DNA of 64,000 nt from Polytrichum commune (taxonomy: Eukaryota > Streptophyta > Polytrichopsida > Polytrichales > Polytrichaceae), in contig OX485803.1 in the NCBI GenBank assembly GCA_950295325.1, positions 62,699,554 to 62,763,553 on the forward strand, in the 5' to 3' direction. Positions 1-32,500 of the stretch are shown here, piece after piece. Made by a program: the position numbers and the translations under genes. The notes beneath the pieces were generated by a model that searched no databases, had not been told where the DNA came from, and saw nothing but the letters and a program-made list of their open reading frames with translations. Within the stretch, counting starts at the first letter, position 1. Every line of letters begins with the position of its first letter.

Positions 1-3000
1 AGTGGAAGATAGGAGGGAGGGAGTGGAGGTAGTTCGGATGGTGAACGAGTGTTTCAAGAGGTATGATGGATTGCCCGGACACGCAAACACCACATCACGC
101 AATGAGGGCATGGAGGAAGAAGACAAAGGAAGACAACAAGACGAGGACGAGATGGCCAACATGGAAGTACCTTTACTTGAAGAGAGCAATGAAGAAAATG
201 ACGATAGTATGGAGGAATTATTGAAAGAAGCGAGAACTCCGCTCTTCAAGGATAGCCCCACCAACCGCTTGCAAGCTATCCTAATGCTCCTCAATGTATG
301 CAACATTTTTGGAGTACCAAACGCATGCGTGGACGAGTTGCTCAAGTTGCTTAAACATGATCTACTCCCCAGAAAGAACACTTGCCCTCCTTCACATTAC
401 GAGGCCAAGAAATTGGTGAGGAAGTTGGGTTTAAGCTACAACACTATTCATGCGTGCAAGAATGGTCATTGCTTGTTCAGGAATGAATTGAAGGACGCGA
501 AAGAGTGTCCCCAATGCAAAGAATCGCGGTATATTCCCGGTAGTGAGAGCATTCCTGTGAAAGTGTTGCGACATTTTCCTCTTATACCTCGGTTGCTCCG
601 AATGTACCGTTGCAAACGCCTTGCCGAGCTTATGACGTGGCATGTGGAGGGAAAAAGCAATGACAACAAAGTGAGATCGATAGTGGATTCAAAGGCATGG
701 AAACACGTGGACGCAAGGTGGCCGGACTTTGCGAAGGAGCCAAGAAACCTACGTTTGGCACTAGCTTTGGATGGTGTCAATCCATTTTCTAACCAGTCTT
801 TAAGTCATTCAACATGGCCAGTGGTATTGTTAAACTACAATTTACCACCATGGCTAGTTACGAAACGGTTTTTTGTAATGTTAACCCTAATCATTCCCGG
901 AAAAGAAAGTGTGAAAGAGGAGAATATCCATGTGTATTTAGCACCCCTTATAGAGGAGCTTCAAAGGTTGTGGAAAGGGGTGATGGCAACAGATGGATCT
1001 GTTTTGGAGAAGGCGAGTTTAAGTGAGGGGAGTATTTATTCCACAAACCCAAATTTCAACCTTCGTGCGATTCTTATGTGGAGCATACATGACTTTCCGG
1101 CGTATGGGTTGCTTGCCGGACAAGTAACGAAGGGGTATAGGGATTGTCCCCCATGTGGGCCACATGTATCAACGAGGAGGTCCAAGTTGTTGGGGAAGAA
1201 CATTTACCAAGGTCATCGTCGTTACTTGGCAATGCACCATCCGTATAGACGATTAAAAAATAGTTTTGATGGAGAAGAGGATCACCGAGGTCCCCCGCGG
1301 GTAATGTTTGCACATGATCAATTGCGGTTTGCAAAACAAAAAGGAGATTGGTTGGCAAGCTCGACCGAAAACAAAGAAGGAGACAAACTGGATCCAATCC
1401 ACGAGCATGGAGTGAAGAGAAAGAATGCACTCTTTGCATTACCATATTGGAAGGTACAAACTAGCGACTTTTGTTTTACTTTGAGAAGTAATGCATGTCT
1501 ATTAACAGTAAATACACTTTACCGTTAGCGGTAATGCATAATGACTGTAGAAAGTAAGGGTTCGCTTATAAATGCATTTTCATTAATACTCCAATACTTA
1601 TACAAGTAATGGTATAGTCATATCGGATAACTATTGTTTCAACACTTTGCAACAGTTTATTATATGGCATTTAACAGCCAGTGCACTTACCCAAATTTTG
1701 TGTGCACCAACAGGGCCTTCTTATACGCAATATGTTGGATGTAATGCAATGCGAGAAGAACATAACAGAAAGTCTTATGAAAACCATATTTGGGGAGAAG
1801 GATACACTAAAGGTTCGCATGGATTTACAGGAAGCCAACATACGGCCGCATTTGTGGCCCATACCGGGGAGAAAACCAGGAAGCCTCATTTTGCCACAAG
1901 CCCCATATGTGCTCACAAAGAACGAGAAGGAGGTATTTGTGGATGTTGTGCGGCAATTGAAAACTCCAACCCACTATGTGGGCCAATTGCGGAAAAGAGT
2001 TAACGTGGATGGGACATTGAAAGGATTGAAATCCCACGATTACCATGTCCTTATGCAACAAGTTTTGCCCCTTTGTGTACGCACAATCATGAGAAAAGAG
2101 GTGCGTATATGCATAATAAGATTAAGCCGCATATTCAAACGGATATGCGCTAAAACCATCAATCCGTTGGAAATGAGTGACTTGAGAGAGGATACGGCCA
2201 TCACCTTGTGCATGCTTGAAAATGAGTTTCCACCGGCATTTTTTGATGTCATGACGCACCTTTTGGTGCACTTGATTGAGGAATTAGATATTTGTGGGCC
2301 TATACATGTCCGTTGGATGTATCCTATGGAAAGGTATTTGAAGACATTGAAGGACTATGTTCGAAATCGCAATAGACCCGAAGCTAGTATGGCCGAAGGA
2401 TATGCAATAGATGAGGCGTTTGGCTTTTGCACGGAATACATGACGTCATATTCCATTACAAGTCGCAGGGTATGGGACGACAAAGAGGATCCTACAATGA
2501 ACGACGAAATATTGGAAGATGTTGGGCGCCCAAGGATACTAACCCCCAAGATACGCGATTGGATTCATGAATTTGTGGTGAATAATGTGGCCCCCTTGGA
2601 GTCGTGGAGAGAGTAAGTTACTTTATGACTATTGTTCATGGCGGTGACATTATATTCCAGGCACAATGATATGTTAATGGCATACACATTATAATGTCAC
2701 TAGTCATACTAGCCAATAACTATACGTAGTAAGCATCTGTGACTCGAAAGAGTGAATAATTATGGAAATGACATATATTTATTACTCTCCATCGTGATAT
2801 CTACTTTACTACGTAAAGTAATATTAACAAAAACCTTTGGAATTTGAAAGACAACACAATATTGTGTTTTTCTGCAGGCGTCACACCGCAAGTATGACAC
2901 AGCGCAAATTGGATCGTGAGGAATATCGAAGGAAGAAACGTAATGGCAGGATTGTCTACCCCGAAAATCTCCAAGATGAGCCCTTTCACAATTGGTTCAA

Positions 3001-4149
3001 ATCCGAGGTTTCACGTGCCAAAGCGGCGGAAGAAGAGATTGATGAAGATGTATTGGTCTTGTCTCTTCCACCCTCTAGCCAAACAACATCTTACCGCTCC
3101 ATGTATGCTTTTAGAAACCATATCCGTGTGCGAAGTGCAGAGGGGACATTGACAATATGCGACTGTGGCGTGGCCGCCACCTTCTCCCAAAATTGTCGAT
3201 CAAGTGTACGTGCCAAGAACATGAAGGCGGCGAACTTGGAGTATGTGGGATGGGTGGAGGAAATATTGGCCGTAGACTATGGTCAATATGAATTGGTTGT
3301 GTTGTATTGTAATTGGGTGATGGCAAATATGGTTGGGCACAATGTCACCATGAAGCGAGATGAGTATGGGTTTAGCCTAGTGAATTTTGATAGGTTGGTA
3401 CCATTATCTGCCGAATCTTTCGCATTTCCACTCCATGTTGAACAAGTTTTCTTTGCAGATGATTTGACCAATCATGGGTGGAAGGTGGTTCTACGGAAAG
3501 AGCCAAGGGGAGCAAGAGTTGTTTCCAACAAAGACTATATACCGGACATAGGTTGCCTATCTCTAGGCAACGTTGAAGAGCATTGTGGATTGGTGCCCGC
3601 ATCTTTAGAGAACGATGCAACACCAACTGACCCAATTTTGGATGAGGTTGTGGTTTTAAGCAGCAACGAAGTGGTTGTAGCTTTGAACACAAATGAGCAC
3701 GAATCTCCTTTTGAAGATGAGGATGACTTTGGAATTGAAGAAGATAGAAATGTTCAAATAGATTAAATTAGATTTTGTTAGTTATGTAGAAATGCCTCAC
3801 TGTATATAAATATGTACATTCTATTATAAATTCTAAAAATAGACGTCCCTTTTTGGTGAGTACTCACTCTAAACCCTTGAAACATATGACAATCTGACCT
3901 GATAATCTTTCCAAATCGACCACTTCACTACCCAAAGTAATGCACGTTCCATTGGGCGTTCCCAAACACATTCACACGTGCGTTCCCAACTGAATTGTTG
4001 TCCCATTTCACCACCATGACTCCTCAAAGTAAATTCGGACATTGAATGAACATGATTGAATTTCGTGCATTCCCCCAATCACTCTTCATAGTAGTAAAAG
4101 ACATGTAGTGAAGTGGGTGTTGGAATAAAAGACGTGTTCTGTAGTAGTG
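1..4149 (+). mobile_element. CACTA (En/Spm) transposon, 3' part
   Basis: Cut-and-paste DNA transposon entering from the left edge, so its 5' terminus is not visible. It carries a TNP2-type transposase (exons 2-3766) and about 380 bp of non-coding right end. The right terminus is read at CTGTAGTAGTG (4139-4149), whose reverse complement CACTACTACAG is the signature CACTA end. Immediately after it the sequence becomes an unrelated open frame encoding an RNase H tail, so the element has inserted into a LINE. The 3' region (3850-4140) holds GC-rich motifs such as ACGTGCGTTCCC and GACGTGTTC that look like the subterminal transposase-binding repeats of this superfamily. The 3-bp target duplication (TTA on the right) cannot be checked without the left flank. 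Confidence 0.85.
2..3766 (+). CDS. TNP2-like CACTA transposase (5' incomplete)
   Basis: Transposase of the En/Spm (CACTA) superfamily, which excises and reinserts the element. I join three exons: 2-1453, 1714-2612 and 2878-3766, with GT-AG introns of 260 and 265 bp in consistent phase (0, then 2), giving about 1,079 residues open to the left edge. The first intron falls after FALPYWK and resumes at GLLIRNMLDVMQCEKN, the conserved TNP2 junction before the IEKN-like motif. The order is Transposase_Tnp2 domain in exon 1 (Cys-rich stretch CKNGHCLFRNELKDAKECPQC shortened here to its key C/H residues), DUF4218-like region in exon 2 (MTHLLVHLIEELDICGPIHV), and DUF4216-like region in exon 3 (FFADDLTNHGWKVVL). 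The N-terminal transposase-associated domain would lie left of the window. No internal stop or frameshift is seen, so the element may be recent. Superfamily assignment is secure; activity is not shown. Confidence 0.9.
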
Positions 4150-5366
4150 TTAACATCCAAATTGAACACCCCACACTTCACAATAGCCACCCCGACCAAA
4201 TTACACTTGCCACCATGGTACAACTACTTCAAAACCGGACACAACCAATCACACTATACAAAGTTAGAGCACACGTCAACATTGACGGCAACGAACAAGC
4301 AGATAAATTAGCAAAAGAAGGTCTAGAACTAGAACACAGAATTGCCACTCATCCATACAAACATGCTCATGCCACCCCATACTATTACCAAAAGGATGTT
4401 TGGGCCTCAATGATGGACGTCCCTGATAAAGGCCCAGTTAGATTTCTAGAAAAACAAATTATAAAATACGATAGAGAAAACAACTTAGAAAACATGGCCA
4501 TACAAAACCCTAACACATATAAATGGACACGAAATGCAGATATTGACAAAGAGCTTTCTAATGAATTTTGGGAAAACCCGGCAATCACAGATAAACAAAA
4601 GTCATGCCTCATCAAATTCCGTACGGGAACTTACATGGGCAATGCTAGAAAACAAATGTTCTTCGGTAGACAAAGATACCCATCCATTACATGCCCCATT
4701 TGCAATTCATATGAACCAGATACATGGCTACATGTATTACTTACGTGTAGACAACAACACATACACTCACTTCACGTCAAAAGACACAACAAAACAGTAT
4801 GGGAAATTAGGAAACTACTAATCTCATTTGAAAAATCTCGTGGTTATATTCTCATGAATGCTGGCACCTTCAATAATAAACCCCAAGAAAACACCGTTCC
4901 CAATTGGCTACTTCCTTGCACGTGTGGTACACAAAGATGCCACTGTAACTCAAGATTTAGACCTGACATCCTTTGTGTTAGAGGGTTACCATACCAAAGT
5001 GACCCCCCCACAAACATTGACCCCAATCTCACCATACAATTTATCGAATTCACATACTGCAATGACAGATTCTCACCAGAAACACTCAAAGCAAAAAATA
5101 ACAAATACAGACCATTAATCGCTAGCATTGCTGCTAGAGGGTGGAAAGTTGATCCCCTTATTATCATCACTACAGGCGCCAGAGCCACTACACACATTCT
5201 ATCAATGAAATCACTCGAAAATAATTTCAAAATATCTATGCGTACCATTAAAAATACCTTTAAAAACATCAATACTATCGCCATAAAATATGCTATGTCT
5301 ATCCTCCTCCACAAAAGAAGAATAGAGAACCACCAACCGCTACCCCAAACACTAGACCCCCCATAG
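4150..5366 (+). CDS. LINE polyprotein C-terminus: RNase H, CCHC finger, RLE
   Basis: Truncated 3' end of a non-LTR retrotransposon ORF, about 405 codons, open from the CACTA junction to TAG at 5364. Visible in order: the last part of an RNase H fold (VRAHVNIDGNEQADKLAKEG, about 4268-4322, with its His and the final catalytic Asp); a CCHC finger C-x2-C-x9-H-x4-C (4692-4748); a second Cys cluster CTCGTQRCHC; then RPD (D at 4965-4967), FIEFTY (E at 5046-5048) and a downstream KNNKY. That order matches the restriction-like PD-(D/E)xK endonuclease found C-terminal to the reverse transcriptase in R2-type elements, although the RPD-to-E spacing (26 residues) is longer than the usual 12-14. Land-plant LINEs normally use an N-terminal AP endonuclease. 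Reverse transcriptase and upstream parts are absent because the CACTA insertion cuts the RNase H domain. Confidence 0.75.
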
Positions 5367-5634
5367 TTAAAACTAAACAAAAACTAAAACCAAAGCTACT
5401 TTATTCAAATAATCAATAATGAACTAGGGACCCAGTGACCAAACTCATATTAATGATACCTAAAACACTAACCATTTTGGTCCTTGTTACTGGTGACTAT
5501 AGTGTCTACTCTCGAAAGAGGGGAGTAGATCTTTACTTCCATACCTTTGTCCTGTGGGCATCGGATTGGGGGTGGATCGAACAGACACTTAATTCACGTC
5601 GGTCTCCTCCAGAGACCGAAGTTTTTCTCTCTCT
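5367..5634 (+). repeat. LINE 3' tail with SINE-like end module
   Basis: Non-coding stretch following the LINE stop codon. From about 5495 it aligns by eye with the last 140 bp of the SINE at 9530-9895: shared blocks include GACTATAGTGTC, a CTCGAAAG block, GGGCATCGG and ATTCACG(T/C)CGG. Both end in a hairpin followed by a short pyrimidine tail. Here the hairpin is CGGTCTC/GAGACCG (5600-5606 and 5612-5618, 5-nt loop) and the tail is TTTTTCTCTCTCT. No tRNA-like A or B box precedes it, so I read it as the LINE's own 3' UTR; a 5'-truncated SINE copy is the alternative. Confidence 0.6.
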
Positions 5635-6152
5635 AATACTAGCATTTGACACATGTATTTTCATAACATTACTCAGTTGAGCTATCCTGATTTCATGTTT
5701 AGTATGAAGCAGTGGGATTGCGACATCCATAATGTTTTATTCTCAAATTTTTTGTTGGGTCCATGAACACAACTCATCAGCTAAGTAATGTTATGCTATG
5801 TAATGCAATGTCAGTCACATTTGCAAATTACACGGGGCGACCAACATTGTAAGTTGAATAGAATTTGAAGATGTCAACTTGAGTCCATCCATTCAGTCAA
5901 TAACTAATATACATAAGATAGATGATATTAAATGGTTATTTTTCTCGGGGGATGCACTGTACTAAACATGTACGAGTATACGTGAGTGCACAGGAGGGGT
6001 ATTGATTTGGACCTTGCCATATTACGTATACATATGGTATACATGTTATAATTTATAGTTACGTACATATATGGAAGGCCTTTAAAAAGTATACAATAAT
6101 TGTACTTGTATGGTATTGTTACTATACTGCATATCATAAGTTTTCATATTGG

Positions 6153-9154: not shown

Positions 9155-9520
9155 CACTGATTATCCCAATTAGTGCGGGAGGGCTACTAGTGCACATGGG
9201 ATTAGTGAAGGTGATACTAAGTTTCTTTACGCCATGAACTTAGTGATCTAGGAAGCATTGTTCATTCACTATTCACTGAAAATACTATTCATCTCGACAC
9301 TACTCACTAACAAACATGTGTTTATATATAATTTTTTATATCACACTACAAGCACCTCAAAGCATGCACTAACTTCCTTGAAGTGTATGAAAATTGAGAA
9401 TGTCTTCATGAATTGAGTATCACTCAGTAAAAATTTCAGCCCTCTCTACTTTTGAGACTAGACAAAAATGATGCGTGTTTCAAGCATTAGGACCACACAC
9501 ACTAGTCGGGATAAACGGTG
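9155..9520. mobile_element. TA-flanked TIR element (mariner/Stowaway-like)
   Basis: 366-bp non-coding element with imperfect inverted ends: CACTGATTATCCC on the left and GGGATAAACGGTG on the right, continuing as a weaker match to about 22 bp. It is flanked by TA on both sides (9153-9154 and 9521-9522). Removing it rejoins family C repeat sequence as in the uninterrupted copies. TA target duplication and size point to a non-autonomous Tc1/mariner-type MITE; the ends do not match the usual Stowaway consensus, so the family is unassigned. Confidence 0.65.
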
Positions 9521-9529
9521 TAGCTCTCC

Positions 9530-9895
9530 GGCACCACGGGCCTTGGCTTGGTGGTTAGGGCTCATGGCCCCCAATGAGGAGGTTGTGGGTTCTATTCCCC
9601 ATGCCGGCGTGGTGCTCACCACCTTAGTCCACCCAACTATGGCGGGGGGTCCTTGGACCTTGTTGTATGGGTACCTCAAAGCCCTTTGGGTGGATACCAT
9701 GTCCGGTATCTTCAAGGCACTAGTGGCTAGCTAGGAACTAGTATAGTGTGTCACTATAGTGTCCATCCTCGAAAGGGGAGAGTAGTATTGTCCCAATGTC
9801 CCCTTGTCCAATGGGCATCGGGTCATTGGCATTACGAACGGACATTTTATTCACGCCGGCCCCTTGCTAAAAAGGGACCGGAGTTTCTATCTATC
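9530..9895 (+). mobile_element. tRNA-derived SINE with target duplication
   Basis: 366-bp SINE. The 5' part carries RNA polymerase III promoter boxes: an A box TGGCTTGGTGG near 9544-9554 and a B box GGTTCTATTCC at 9588-9598, with normal spacing. It is flanked by a perfect 11-bp direct repeat TGTAGCTCTCC (9519-9529 and 9896-9906). The 3' end has a hairpin (CCGGCCCCTT 9856-9865 paired with AAGGGACCGG 9872-9881, one mismatch) and a CTATCTATC tail. The last 140 bp resemble the tail of the LINE ending at 5634. The first TSD copy contains the last two bases of the neighbouring TA element, so the SINE is the younger insertion. Confidence 0.88.
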
Positions 9896-9963
9896 TGTAG
9901 CTCTCCTGGAGTCTTGAACTTCAATGGGTTATTTCTCAAACTCAACCTGTTTGTCTGTAACTA

Positions 9964-29560: not shown

Positions 29561-32500
29561 ACACCCTCCTAATCAAGTTTCACTAGAGGGTTTTTTTTTG
29601 GTAAAGTCTTGGCATCAAACTTGCGTTGAGTTGGCTAAAATGCAACTTTGAGAGCCTATGCATAAAATCATCCCTAGTTTTTCAATGCTTAAATTATTAT
29701 GCTCAAGGAGTGGTGTTAGGCTCTTATAAAAACAACTTTCTAGCTTGTTCTACTAGGATGGGTAGGCCAAGCTAGCCTTGCATAGGCCAATGTAGGATTC
29801 ATGACAACGGGTCCCATGGAGAAACCTTGTTTTAGATCCTAAACTTCTCTTCAAGTTTTTGGGATGATAAGAGGATGGTCCAACAATTTCACCCAACTTT
29901 TAAATCAAGCTCCAACACACGACTGCCTATCGAGCTCTTTAATGAAATGTTTTTTTTCCAAAGAAGGATCAAACCCATAGTTTCCATCCCTCTTTGAGGG
30001 ACTTTACAGGCAACTCAAGTACTATATGTCTATATTCCAAGCACAAACTCCAATCTCGTCATATCACACATCTTTATTGTGCCCATTCGTAATCATAGGC
30101 CATGTCATAACCCATCAAATTATTGGTGTCTAGCAAATGATAAGACCCACACACCCAAATGAGAAGTTTGTGATACAAACCTACATGGGTGGCTTGATCC
30201 CACCACAGCTCTCAAGTATGTGGAGTCAATCAACGTCAATTGGGCTCAACTAGAAACCAAGGCTTGGCCCTATAATTGTGAGGGCCTCGCTCACAAGCAT
30301 GATGTGTCGCCACATGACTTGTCCAAATTTGATGACGAGGCGTGGGAACCATGTGACCCTCAAAGCTTGTAACTTAAGTACTTGGTAAGCTTAGTATGAC
30401 ATGCTCTTGTTTACGCTACCGAATCGAAATGACTAGGTACCACCCTTAATAATCCAACCATGCCACTCCACAATGTACCAACCTCGTACCTATGTACCTA
30501 GTCTTACGTGAACTGTACAGGTGGATTTACAATCGGTGCCCAAAACCCCTCAACCTTTAATGCACTTGGGGTTATATAAAGGTAGCAACACCTTAAACCA
30601 AGAAATTAAGGTACTTGGCATACATATGGTAGTCATATGAACACCAACAACACAAAAACCATAAGAAGAAGAAGAAGAAGAAATTGCAAATTAAAAAAAA
30701 ATCTCATATATATATTTTTATTTATTTTTTAGTCTAGGAATGAACATTGTGTTGTCACCCAAAACCATCCAAGGGTTTAATGTTCACATGATGAAACATT
30801 CTCATAATTAATATGTACTTATCAAGCAAGATTTCAGGGTGTTGGTTTTGGGTAGGGAGTTGGTTTTAGCGACCTTTACTGTATGAACCTATTGCTCACT
30901 AGTTGAATGTTTTGGAAGACTTAACAAACTCAAATTGATTTCAATTCTTTTACGAACGTTGTGTGACCTTATGATATATTCACGTAGGAGGACTTAGTAG
31001 ATGTTAAGAACCACGTGCCAAAAAAGAAAAAGAAAAAGAAGGTAGAATAAAATATGAAGGAGTAATATTCATGAAACAATGAACACAAATATAAGATAGC
31101 AGTATCTTGTTTTGAAAATATATTATGTGTATTTCAAGAAATCCTCTAATATGTGGAATATCCCATGGTATTGCGCATTTCTTCATAGTCCCCTAAAGTC
31201 AACCATGTATTGCATGTGGTTCATTCACATCCCCTCAAAAGAGTAACCTCCCCCCCCCCTCCCCTCCAAATTCAGAATGAAGGGGTTAAATGACACGTCA
31301 TGACAATTTTAGTCAACATGTGACCTACCTTAACTTCTCTTTTGGGTGATGCCCCCATAATGCCTCCTATCTTGCATTCACATTCTATAGTAACGCATAA
31401 CAAGCACATAATATATTTTTTCCCTTTGTTAGCAAATCTCTCCTTTGTTAGCAAAAAACATGATCGTTACATTTTTTTTTAAAGAAATTTCACCCTAACA
31501 ATTTCACCCACAAATGGTCATGTCCAGTTTCTGTCTCAAGGACAAAGGTTACATGATATAGGTGAGGCGTGTTACTTCTTGACGGCTACCTAGTCCATTG
31601 GCTTGGAACAATACGTTGTTTCTTTTTTCTAGCACAAAACTCATAAATGCAATTTATCAAGCTATGCATTTAAGTGACTTTCAAATTACCAATTTAAGAT
31701 ACAATTTTTGTGCCAATATTGATCGTGGTGTTGTAAGTATCTTTGAGAATGATTGGTGCAAAGCAAAGGAGTAGAAAGTTTGTGACACCAATGAATGTTC
31801 AAATAAAGAAATGAACTCACAGTGGAAGCTTGTTGTTACCGATTTTTTGATACTTTTTTGGATTCATGGATTCTTGGATTCAAAGGAGGATATGATGGCC
31901 TAGTTTGGGGGCTTTGACTTAAGACTATAGATGACAATGTATTGCACCAAGACTAACTTACCCCACTTCGAGGGCAATTTCGGTGGAACAATAACAATGC
32001 CTAAATTCTAAAGAAGTAATCAAAGAATGTTGACCTTGGAAACAAACTTACAAATAGCAAGCGTTGGTGCCTATTCTTTATCAAACGAAGTACGGAATAT
32101 GATTAAATGTATTTTTTAATGAAGAGATTCGTGTGCGTGCGTGCGTGCAAATAATAACATGTTGCAAGAACTAGATGAGAAGAGATCATTGGGTATATTG
32201 TGAAGATGATACATTTTCATCTCTTAGCTAAGGCTTAGCTGAGGGCGTCAACCTATATGTTTAATAAAATTAAACTAAAAACTCATTTGAGAATGAGAGG
32301 GGAGAGAAATTAGCATCAAGTTTATTATAAAGTAAATAAGAAAATAAATTTACATGGAGCTGATGAGTTTCTTGAACAAGAATTATCAGTTAAAATATAA
32401 TTGATGGATAGAAACTCCAAACCTCTTTCAAGGCCGGCGTGAATAAAAGTGTTCATCTGTAATGTTAATGACCCAGTGCACACCGGACAAATGGCCATTG

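Follow-up and report, generated by a model that had tools for sequence, protein, structure and literature searches.

We report here what is likely, at a probability of about 0.84, a Dualen/RandI-type non-LTR retrotransposon with recent activity in a land-plant genome; no RNA, protein or insertion-polymorphism data are available. The element came to light through a 5'-truncated LINE copy at 4150-5635 (+) of the window, by which we mean the whole 64,000-nucleotide stretch of DNA that was analyzed. A preliminary description had claimed for this copy a layout of RNase H tail, CCHC finger and RPD...E...K-x3-Y, the presence of an R2-type restriction-like endonuclease (RLE) together with RNase H in a plant LINE, and a likeness to Dualen/RandI. 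These claims held: the first by sequence and, for the finger and the RPD...E...K-x3-Y residues, by invariance in 14 of 14 aligned sequences, the second through motifs and an hhalign comparison with shuffles but not through a fold, and the third on stronger grounds than were visible to that description, since the group is defined by an AP endonuclease and this is likewise present in full-length copies. Absent from it were the AP endonuclease, a PCIF1-type domain, a 2A-like motif and a SINE in the window that has the 3' end in common with the LINE.

The window copy is a truncated member of a large family

The copy consists of the ORF2 C terminus, a 3' UTR and a pyrimidine tail. It lies in an open frame of 422 amino acids (4098-5366, +), the LINE part of which begins at about 4150, where the alignment to sister copies starts; this alignment extends to 5635. 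The C-terminal part of an RNase H (4150-4325, +) keeps the His and the last Asp of the motif. Residues 40-76 of the frame score 23.6 bits in Pfam (E 6.4e-5), just below the cut-off of 25.8, and the full domain is present in full-length copy A (49.9 bits). There follow a CCHC finger of the form C-x2-C-x9-H-x4-C (4692-4748, +), a second cysteine cluster, C-x-C-x4-C-x-C, directly before RPD (4917-4946, +), and the inferred core of an R2-type RLE with RPD, E, KxxKY and GAR (4956-5250, +, limits approximate). The three Cys and the His of the finger and the four Cys of the cluster are invariant in 14 of 14 aligned sequences, and it is possible that the cluster forms a second zinc site. The Asp of RPD lies at 4965-4967 and is separated by 26 residues from the Glu at 5046-5048, with KxxKY starting at 5094. 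A structured 3' UTR with a branched stem and a terminal hairpin (5495-5623, +) and the pyrimidine tail of the window subfamily (5624-5635, +) complete the copy, for which a target-site duplication of at least 8 bp was looked for and not found.

The genome searched comprises 407.8 Mb in 64 contigs, with about 406 Mb concentrated in seven of them. Against it, the window protein gave 99 scored matches out of 6103 rough candidates. One match is the window itself; the other 98 are 82-92% identical to the window protein and are distributed over all seven large contigs. Given 99 scored matches genome-wide, three of which sit in a frame of 2625 amino acids, we regard the window copy as a 5'-truncated member of a large family. 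With this many matches, the finger and RPD-E-KxxKY pattern of the window is not a chance occurrence. Viral contigs and other genome contigs were also scanned for relatives of the LINE, and none were found. Within the window, alignment to the LINE 3' end identified one decayed relic of it (32403-32500, −; 75% identity).

The long open frame in the window copy could be taken to indicate that such a LINE has been domesticated as a host gene with a conserved cellular role. This possibility is all but excluded by the 98 other scored copies on the seven large contigs, by two near-identical full-length copies, by the presence of element tails in 18 of 18 fetched copies, and by the window copy itself being a truncated insertion.

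Elsewhere in the window, remnants of a CACTA-type transposon occupy 2-3766 (+), with Transposase_21, DUF4218 and DUF4216 in three frames. The host genome contains four LFY matches, with H in KMRHYVHCY; mosses have D at the position of this H. It also yielded 13 SAUR matches and 28 NAC exon matches, neither of which was found in any of 14 control genomes, and a plastid stretch of 30% G+C carrying rbcL, trnR-CCG and one further frame, which we take to be accD; cysT is absent. On these grounds the host is read as a land plant and, tentatively, as a bryophyte.

Full-length copies and domain architecture of ORF2

Two full-length copies, A (11,965 nt) and C (12,490 nt), are each enclosed by 12-bp target-site duplications. 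Their sequences agree to 99.55% over 11,869 nt, so the family appears young. Similarity to A falls to about 87% over 7.4 kb in subfamily F/G and to about 73% over the aligned 3.15 kb in D. The recovery of full-length copies, which the preliminary description had named as a check, was thus achieved, and these copies do not end in an L1 tail. A search for the 5' UTR of copy A located it at just two places in the genome, and many copies are therefore probably truncated or have another 5' end. As a separate observation, the 5' regions of copies A and C (L015, L017) contain repeated units at intervals of about 114 nt, arranged differently in the two copies, and the resemblance of copy B (L016) to A begins only shortly upstream of ORF1.

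ORF1 has 747 amino acids (stop to stop) and overlaps by 25 nt with ORF2, which has 2625. Scanning 454 amino acids of ORF1 gave no Pfam match below E 1; by our own reading of the sequence, ORF1 may include a coiled coil and a stretch resembling an RRM. The order in ORF2 is 2A-like motif, AP endonuclease, reverse transcriptase (RT), PCIF1-type domain, RNase H, CCHC finger and RLE. The 2A-like motif is GDIEPNPGP at residues 277-285 of copy A, with Met next in the three subfamilies seen. In subfamily F it reads GDIKPNPGP, with K for E, and departs from the described 2A motif D[V/I]ExNPGP (PMC4981915).

The AP endonuclease occupies residues 496-765 of ORF2 in copy A, and its WN, QE, GDFN and SDH blocks are kept in three of three copies. 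With the Pfam model Exo_endo_phos (cut-off 24.5), copy D passes at 25.5 bits, copy A remains below at 19.5 and copy F was unreported; a match of the region to exonuclease III (E 0.0042) covers only 42 residues. The RT extends over residues 1122-1387 of copy A (Pfam E 2.3e-29), and RVT_1 scores 95.8-103.6 bits in the ORF2 of copies A, D and F. RNase_H reaches 47.1-54.8 bits in the same three copies; the domain lies at residues 2139-2279 of copy A and contains the D-E-D-H-D motif residues. The CCHC finger, RPD and E follow at residues 2402, 2491 and 2520.

Selection was estimated from eight sequences in six pairs, two of which cover the AP endonuclease and RT. For the least saturated pair, A-F, dN/dS was 0.08 for the AP endonuclease, 0.07 for RT, 0.10 for the PCIF1-type domain, 0.05 for both RNase H and the finger, and 0.15 for the RLE; the value for the leader preceding the 2A-like motif was 0.58. 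The two pairs covering the AP endonuclease gave 0.08 and 0.17. In more distant pairs, the domains gave 0.06-0.29 with dS near saturation, and for some of these pairs dS was undefined. These domains are under purifying selection, from which we infer that copies able to replicate have depended on the PCIF1-type domain as well as on both nucleases.

The C terminus resembles the restriction-like endonuclease of R2

The alignment of 14 sequences comprises copies A, D and F, the window copy and 10 of 14 further loci, and every one of them keeps the RLE Asp, Glu, both Lys and Tyr as well as the residues of the finger. The other four loci (L049, L056, L059 and L061) were left out for a broken C-terminal frame or finger. 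Pfam and direct PDB searches with the LINE C terminus gave no RLE match, and we therefore compared it with three R2 chains, which had been drawn from the PDB using an approximate R2 consensus as query. The hhalign score was 26.8 (E 0.0018), compared with a maximum of 20.75 in 200 column shuffles; an earlier run of the same comparison gave 26.5 and a maximum of 20.81 in 100 shuffles. The hhalign probability was 14.75%. An R2 profile run against the LINE family scored 18.5 bits at best and aligned only the finger part in most members, including the window copy (5.2 bits, E 0.019 in a tiny set). The KxxKY-GAR part aligned only in L050, L055, L060 and D, plus an L058 fragment at −0.1 bits. Two single-sequence AlphaFold models were poor (pLDDT 32.6 and 43.8) and add no structural support. 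The RLE identity is thus inferred from sequence alone and rests on motif order and the shuffle control, not on a fold. The profile search that the preliminary description had proposed accordingly found RNase H and no Pfam RLE, with the R2 comparison exceeding the shuffles.

In R2 (8gh6, 9nl2 and 9nl3), a C-terminal finger, RHN, PD, an acidic residue and K-x3-Y occur in the same order as in the LINE in three of three chains, and GAR and the second Lys are each found in two. The PD-E gap had been described as longer than in R2, and this held: 26 residues in the LINE against 12 in R2, an insertion of 14 relative to R2. The LINE has E where R2 has D, and its C-x-C-x4-C-x-C cluster has no counterpart in the three chains. 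R2 elements possess a single ORF without AP endonuclease or RNase H and target rDNA, and the RLE is their sole endonuclease. The LINE differs from R2 in that an AP endonuclease is present and insertion is dispersed.

The reverse transcriptase is likely outside L1

A single-sequence search with the RT gave five R2-type matches (E 2.7e-30 to 1.1e-18); all RT matches were R2-type, and no L1 was found up to E 0.1. With a three-sequence RT profile, the R2 chains 9nl2, 9nl3 and 9dou scored 109-118 bits, human L1 chains 71.5-73.6, 8gh6 69.0, 8ibw 65.1 and 5hhj 17.9. Not every R2 outranks L1, since 8gh6 and 8ibw, which we take to be silkworm R2, score below human L1. An unrooted FastTree of ten sequences set human L1 and four host L1s apart from the LINE RT and two R2 sequences with a support of 0.987; the host L1s were four of five fetched loci, the fifth (L065) being without an RT frame. 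Tree and searches speak against L1, and the RT is likely outside it, but they do not prove that it belongs to the Dualen clade, as no algal RT was compared.

We considered whether the element might be a plant L1 that has gained RNase H and has a zf-RVT-like finger at its C terminus, with an RPD/E/K pattern that arose by accident. Plant L1s carrying RNase H are known (PMC4640811) and have the AP endonuclease, RT, RNase H and finger in common with the LINE. Moreover, zf-RVT elements are present in the same genome (141 matches among 150 scored of 322 candidates), and with the RT profile one R2 chain, 8gh6 (69 bits), falls below human L1 (73.6). Against this reading are the exclusively R2-type matches in the single-sequence search and the tree split, the absence of poly(A) from all 18 tails and the invariance of the RLE motifs in 14 of 14 sequences. 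In addition, the LINE RNase H keeps its His, where archaeal-like RNase H has Arg (PMC4640811). The LINE thus differs from plant L1s with RNase H in RT branch, RLE, tail and RNase H type, and we consider an L1 origin very unlikely.

An RLE-only element of the R2, NeSL or Utopia kind that gained RNase H, with a spurious AP endonuclease match, would be consistent with R2 being the best comparison for both RT and RLE, and with the AP endonuclease being weak in copy A and unreported in F. This alternative also has very little to recommend it: copy D exceeds the Pfam cut-off for the AP endonuclease, the four motif blocks are present in three of three copies with dN/dS of 0.08 and 0.17, there is an exonuclease III match, though a short one, and insertion sites are dispersed. 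A Dualen/RandI-type element with both nucleases remains the preferred reading.

A PCIF1-type domain within ORF2

The Pfam domain PCIF1_WW was detected at residues 1871-1964 of ORF2 in copy A (E 5.3e-8) and in D (E 2.9e-12). Copies A, D and F score 33.1-47 bits, above the cut-off of 31.1, which was also exceeded in three further loci scanned. Genome-wide, 150 of 697 candidates were scored and all lay above the cut-off; none of 14 control genomes gave a match. To human PCIF1 (6irv), the LINE shares the PF12237 core and a collinear, weak alignment (E 0.58), in which NPPF lies opposite a conserved HP. The LINE differs in the replacement of NPPF by [AG]HP[HPY] and in that the domain forms part of a retrotransposon ORF. 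The catalytic Asn of NPPF is absent from eight of eight aligned copies, seven of which have AHP and one GHP, and an FG[SA][LI]G loop is present in all eight. Because NPPF is replaced by a conserved HP, we favor a domain that binds without the usual catalysis.

It is alternatively conceivable that, in the same element, the domain acts as a methyltransferase in spite of its altered motif and is not a binding module. The domain is under selection similar to that on RT (A-F dN/dS 0.10 and 0.07), the loop is fully conserved and the HP replacement is itself conserved. The loss of the NPPF Asn from all eight aligned copies argues against activity, and we consider this alternative unlikely relative to a binding function.

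LINE 3' ends, RNA structure and insertion sites

The 18 LINE ends examined were fetched from the 40 best 1-kb matches of 2428 candidates. In the A subfamily, 18 of 18 fetched copies end in GGAGTNT(CTAT)n, beyond which the flanks differ between copies; flanks were compared by eye over up to about 60 nt. Eight copies of the window subfamily end in pyrimidine runs. Site-specific insertion, a further check proposed in the preliminary description, was looked for and not seen: no fixed site, including rDNA, was evident in the 18 fetched copies, and since the flanking DNA differs from copy to copy we conclude that the LINE lacks a fixed target. Six LINE copies were checked for target-site duplications: A and C have 12 bp and L005 has 11 bp, and none was found for copy B, L003 or the window copy. 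Insertion occurred between G and T in A and C, and between T and T in L005.

The RNA fold of window positions 5455-5628 has a z of −3.1, and 11 of 38 pairs show compensatory change in an alignment of 14 sequences from four LINE subfamilies and the SINE. This alignment contains 14 of 15 motif sequences, L003 having been missed by the search pattern. The sequences are related, so independent events are fewer than the counted cells. The 3' motif occurs at 1605 genome places with at most two mismatches, LINE and SINE ends together, and a reversed control at none. Rfam gave nothing up to E 1 on L009, L015 and L021.

A SINE in the window carries the LINE 3' end

The window also contains a LINE-dependent SINE at 9530-9895 (+), as shown by a 3' end shared with the LINE, target-site duplications and a head of its own. 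Its 3' part of about 147 nt is 87% identical to the LINE 3' end and is followed by a (CTAT)n tail. The head is distinct from the LINE and contains, as judged by eye, A- and B-box-like motifs, TGGCTTGGTGG and GGTTCTATTCC; ARAGORN and Rfam call no tRNA in it. The SINE is flanked by an 11-bp target-site duplication, TGTAGCTCTCC, with the 5' copy at 9519-9529 (+) and the 3' copy at 9896-9906 (+), the first T of the latter being common with the tail.

We compared 33 SINE-motif loci, the window and 32 picked from the first 100 listed of the 1605 places. The 32 represent one zero-mismatch variant on a single contig (C1), and their proportions are no genome estimate. A SINE with head was found at 23 of the 33 loci, the 22 others being 94.2-98.9% identical to the window SINE, and the remaining 10 have 3' parts only. 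Duplications of at least 10 bp flank 18 of the 23 intact copies, whereas mismatched pairing gave 0 in 200 rounds. Among 19 called duplications, 16 are 11-14 bp long and the others 8, 10 and 20 bp; four intact copies have no called duplication, with L072 and L090 being near misses by eye. At the insertion junction, G occupies position −1 in 14 of 19 and T position +1 in 19 of 19. The called junction could favor G because the SINE tail lacks G. In simulations of this bias, run with four different tail ends and 3000 insertions per end, G at −1 reached 0.26-0.28 and T at +1 0.27-0.47, and the observed counts exceed these values (P at most 5.4e-5 and 6.2e-7, respectively). Tails of the CTTT or CTT type, not (CTAT)n, were observed at L072, L074, L086 and L087. 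These varied tails may hint that one SINE is served by several LINE lineages whose tails differ, which we put forward only as a possibility.

Discussion

Dualen/RandI elements are defined by the possession of both nucleases (PMC3636483, PMC4640811) and have been placed in green algae (PMC3747384, PMC8226300), the Dualen/RandI LINEs of which were reportedly treated by Kojima and Fujiwara in 2005. The LINE described here has in common with them an AP endonuclease and an RLE in one element, RNase H, short 3' repeats other than poly(A), and SINEs with a common 3' end (PMC3747384). It differs in its land-plant host and in its tail, which consists of (CTAT)n or pyrimidine repeats, compared with (ATT)n and (CTATTT)n in RandI (PMC3747384). 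The PCIF1-type domain and 2A-like motif are not mentioned in the relevant sections of the cited Dualen/RandI papers. We found no report of Dualen/RandI from land plants, or of a PCIF1 domain in a LINE, in the open-access literature searched; subscription papers and Repbase were outside the scope of these searches. SINEX of Chlamydomonas, which borrows the 3' end of RandI, is a parallel to the LINE/SINE pair (PMC3747384). The host and the SINE head differ, and the tail of SINEX-2_CR is (CTTT)n (PMC3747384), that of the window-type SINE mostly (CTAT)n.

We propose the following mechanism as a working model. The 2A-like site would split the poorly conserved leader from the enzyme during translation, and RT would bind the 3' RNA structure. 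One of the endonucleases would nick the bottom strand at the step between G and T, upon which the terminal A of the primer would pair with a U of the RNA tail and target-primed reverse transcription would start. RNase H would strip the RNA from the hybrid. By analogy to R2, the finger and RLE may keep hold of the target and probably introduce the second cut, at a distance of about 12 bp. For the PCIF1-type domain, binding of RNA or SAM without the usual catalysis is most likely, and the SINE would be mobilized by presenting the same RNA end as the LINE.

A bolder reading, which we regard as unlikely, is that a PCIF1-type adenine methyltransferase is a standing part of the element, which uses it during insertion to mark or read its own RNA or the target DNA. 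In that case, a dual-nuclease, methyltransferase-bearing lineage supporting its own SINEs would have been kept in land plants since their split from algae.

In conclusion, a LINE of the Dualen type that occurs in a land plant, carries a PCIF1-type domain and has a SINE partner appears to be new. The position of Dualen has been taken as showing that LINEs swapped the RLE for an AP endonuclease (PMC4640811). The land-plant family is young, has long frames that are intact, and offers a structured RNA end, a SINE partner and a signature of insertion; it thereby makes it possible to test which of the two nucleases cuts which strand.
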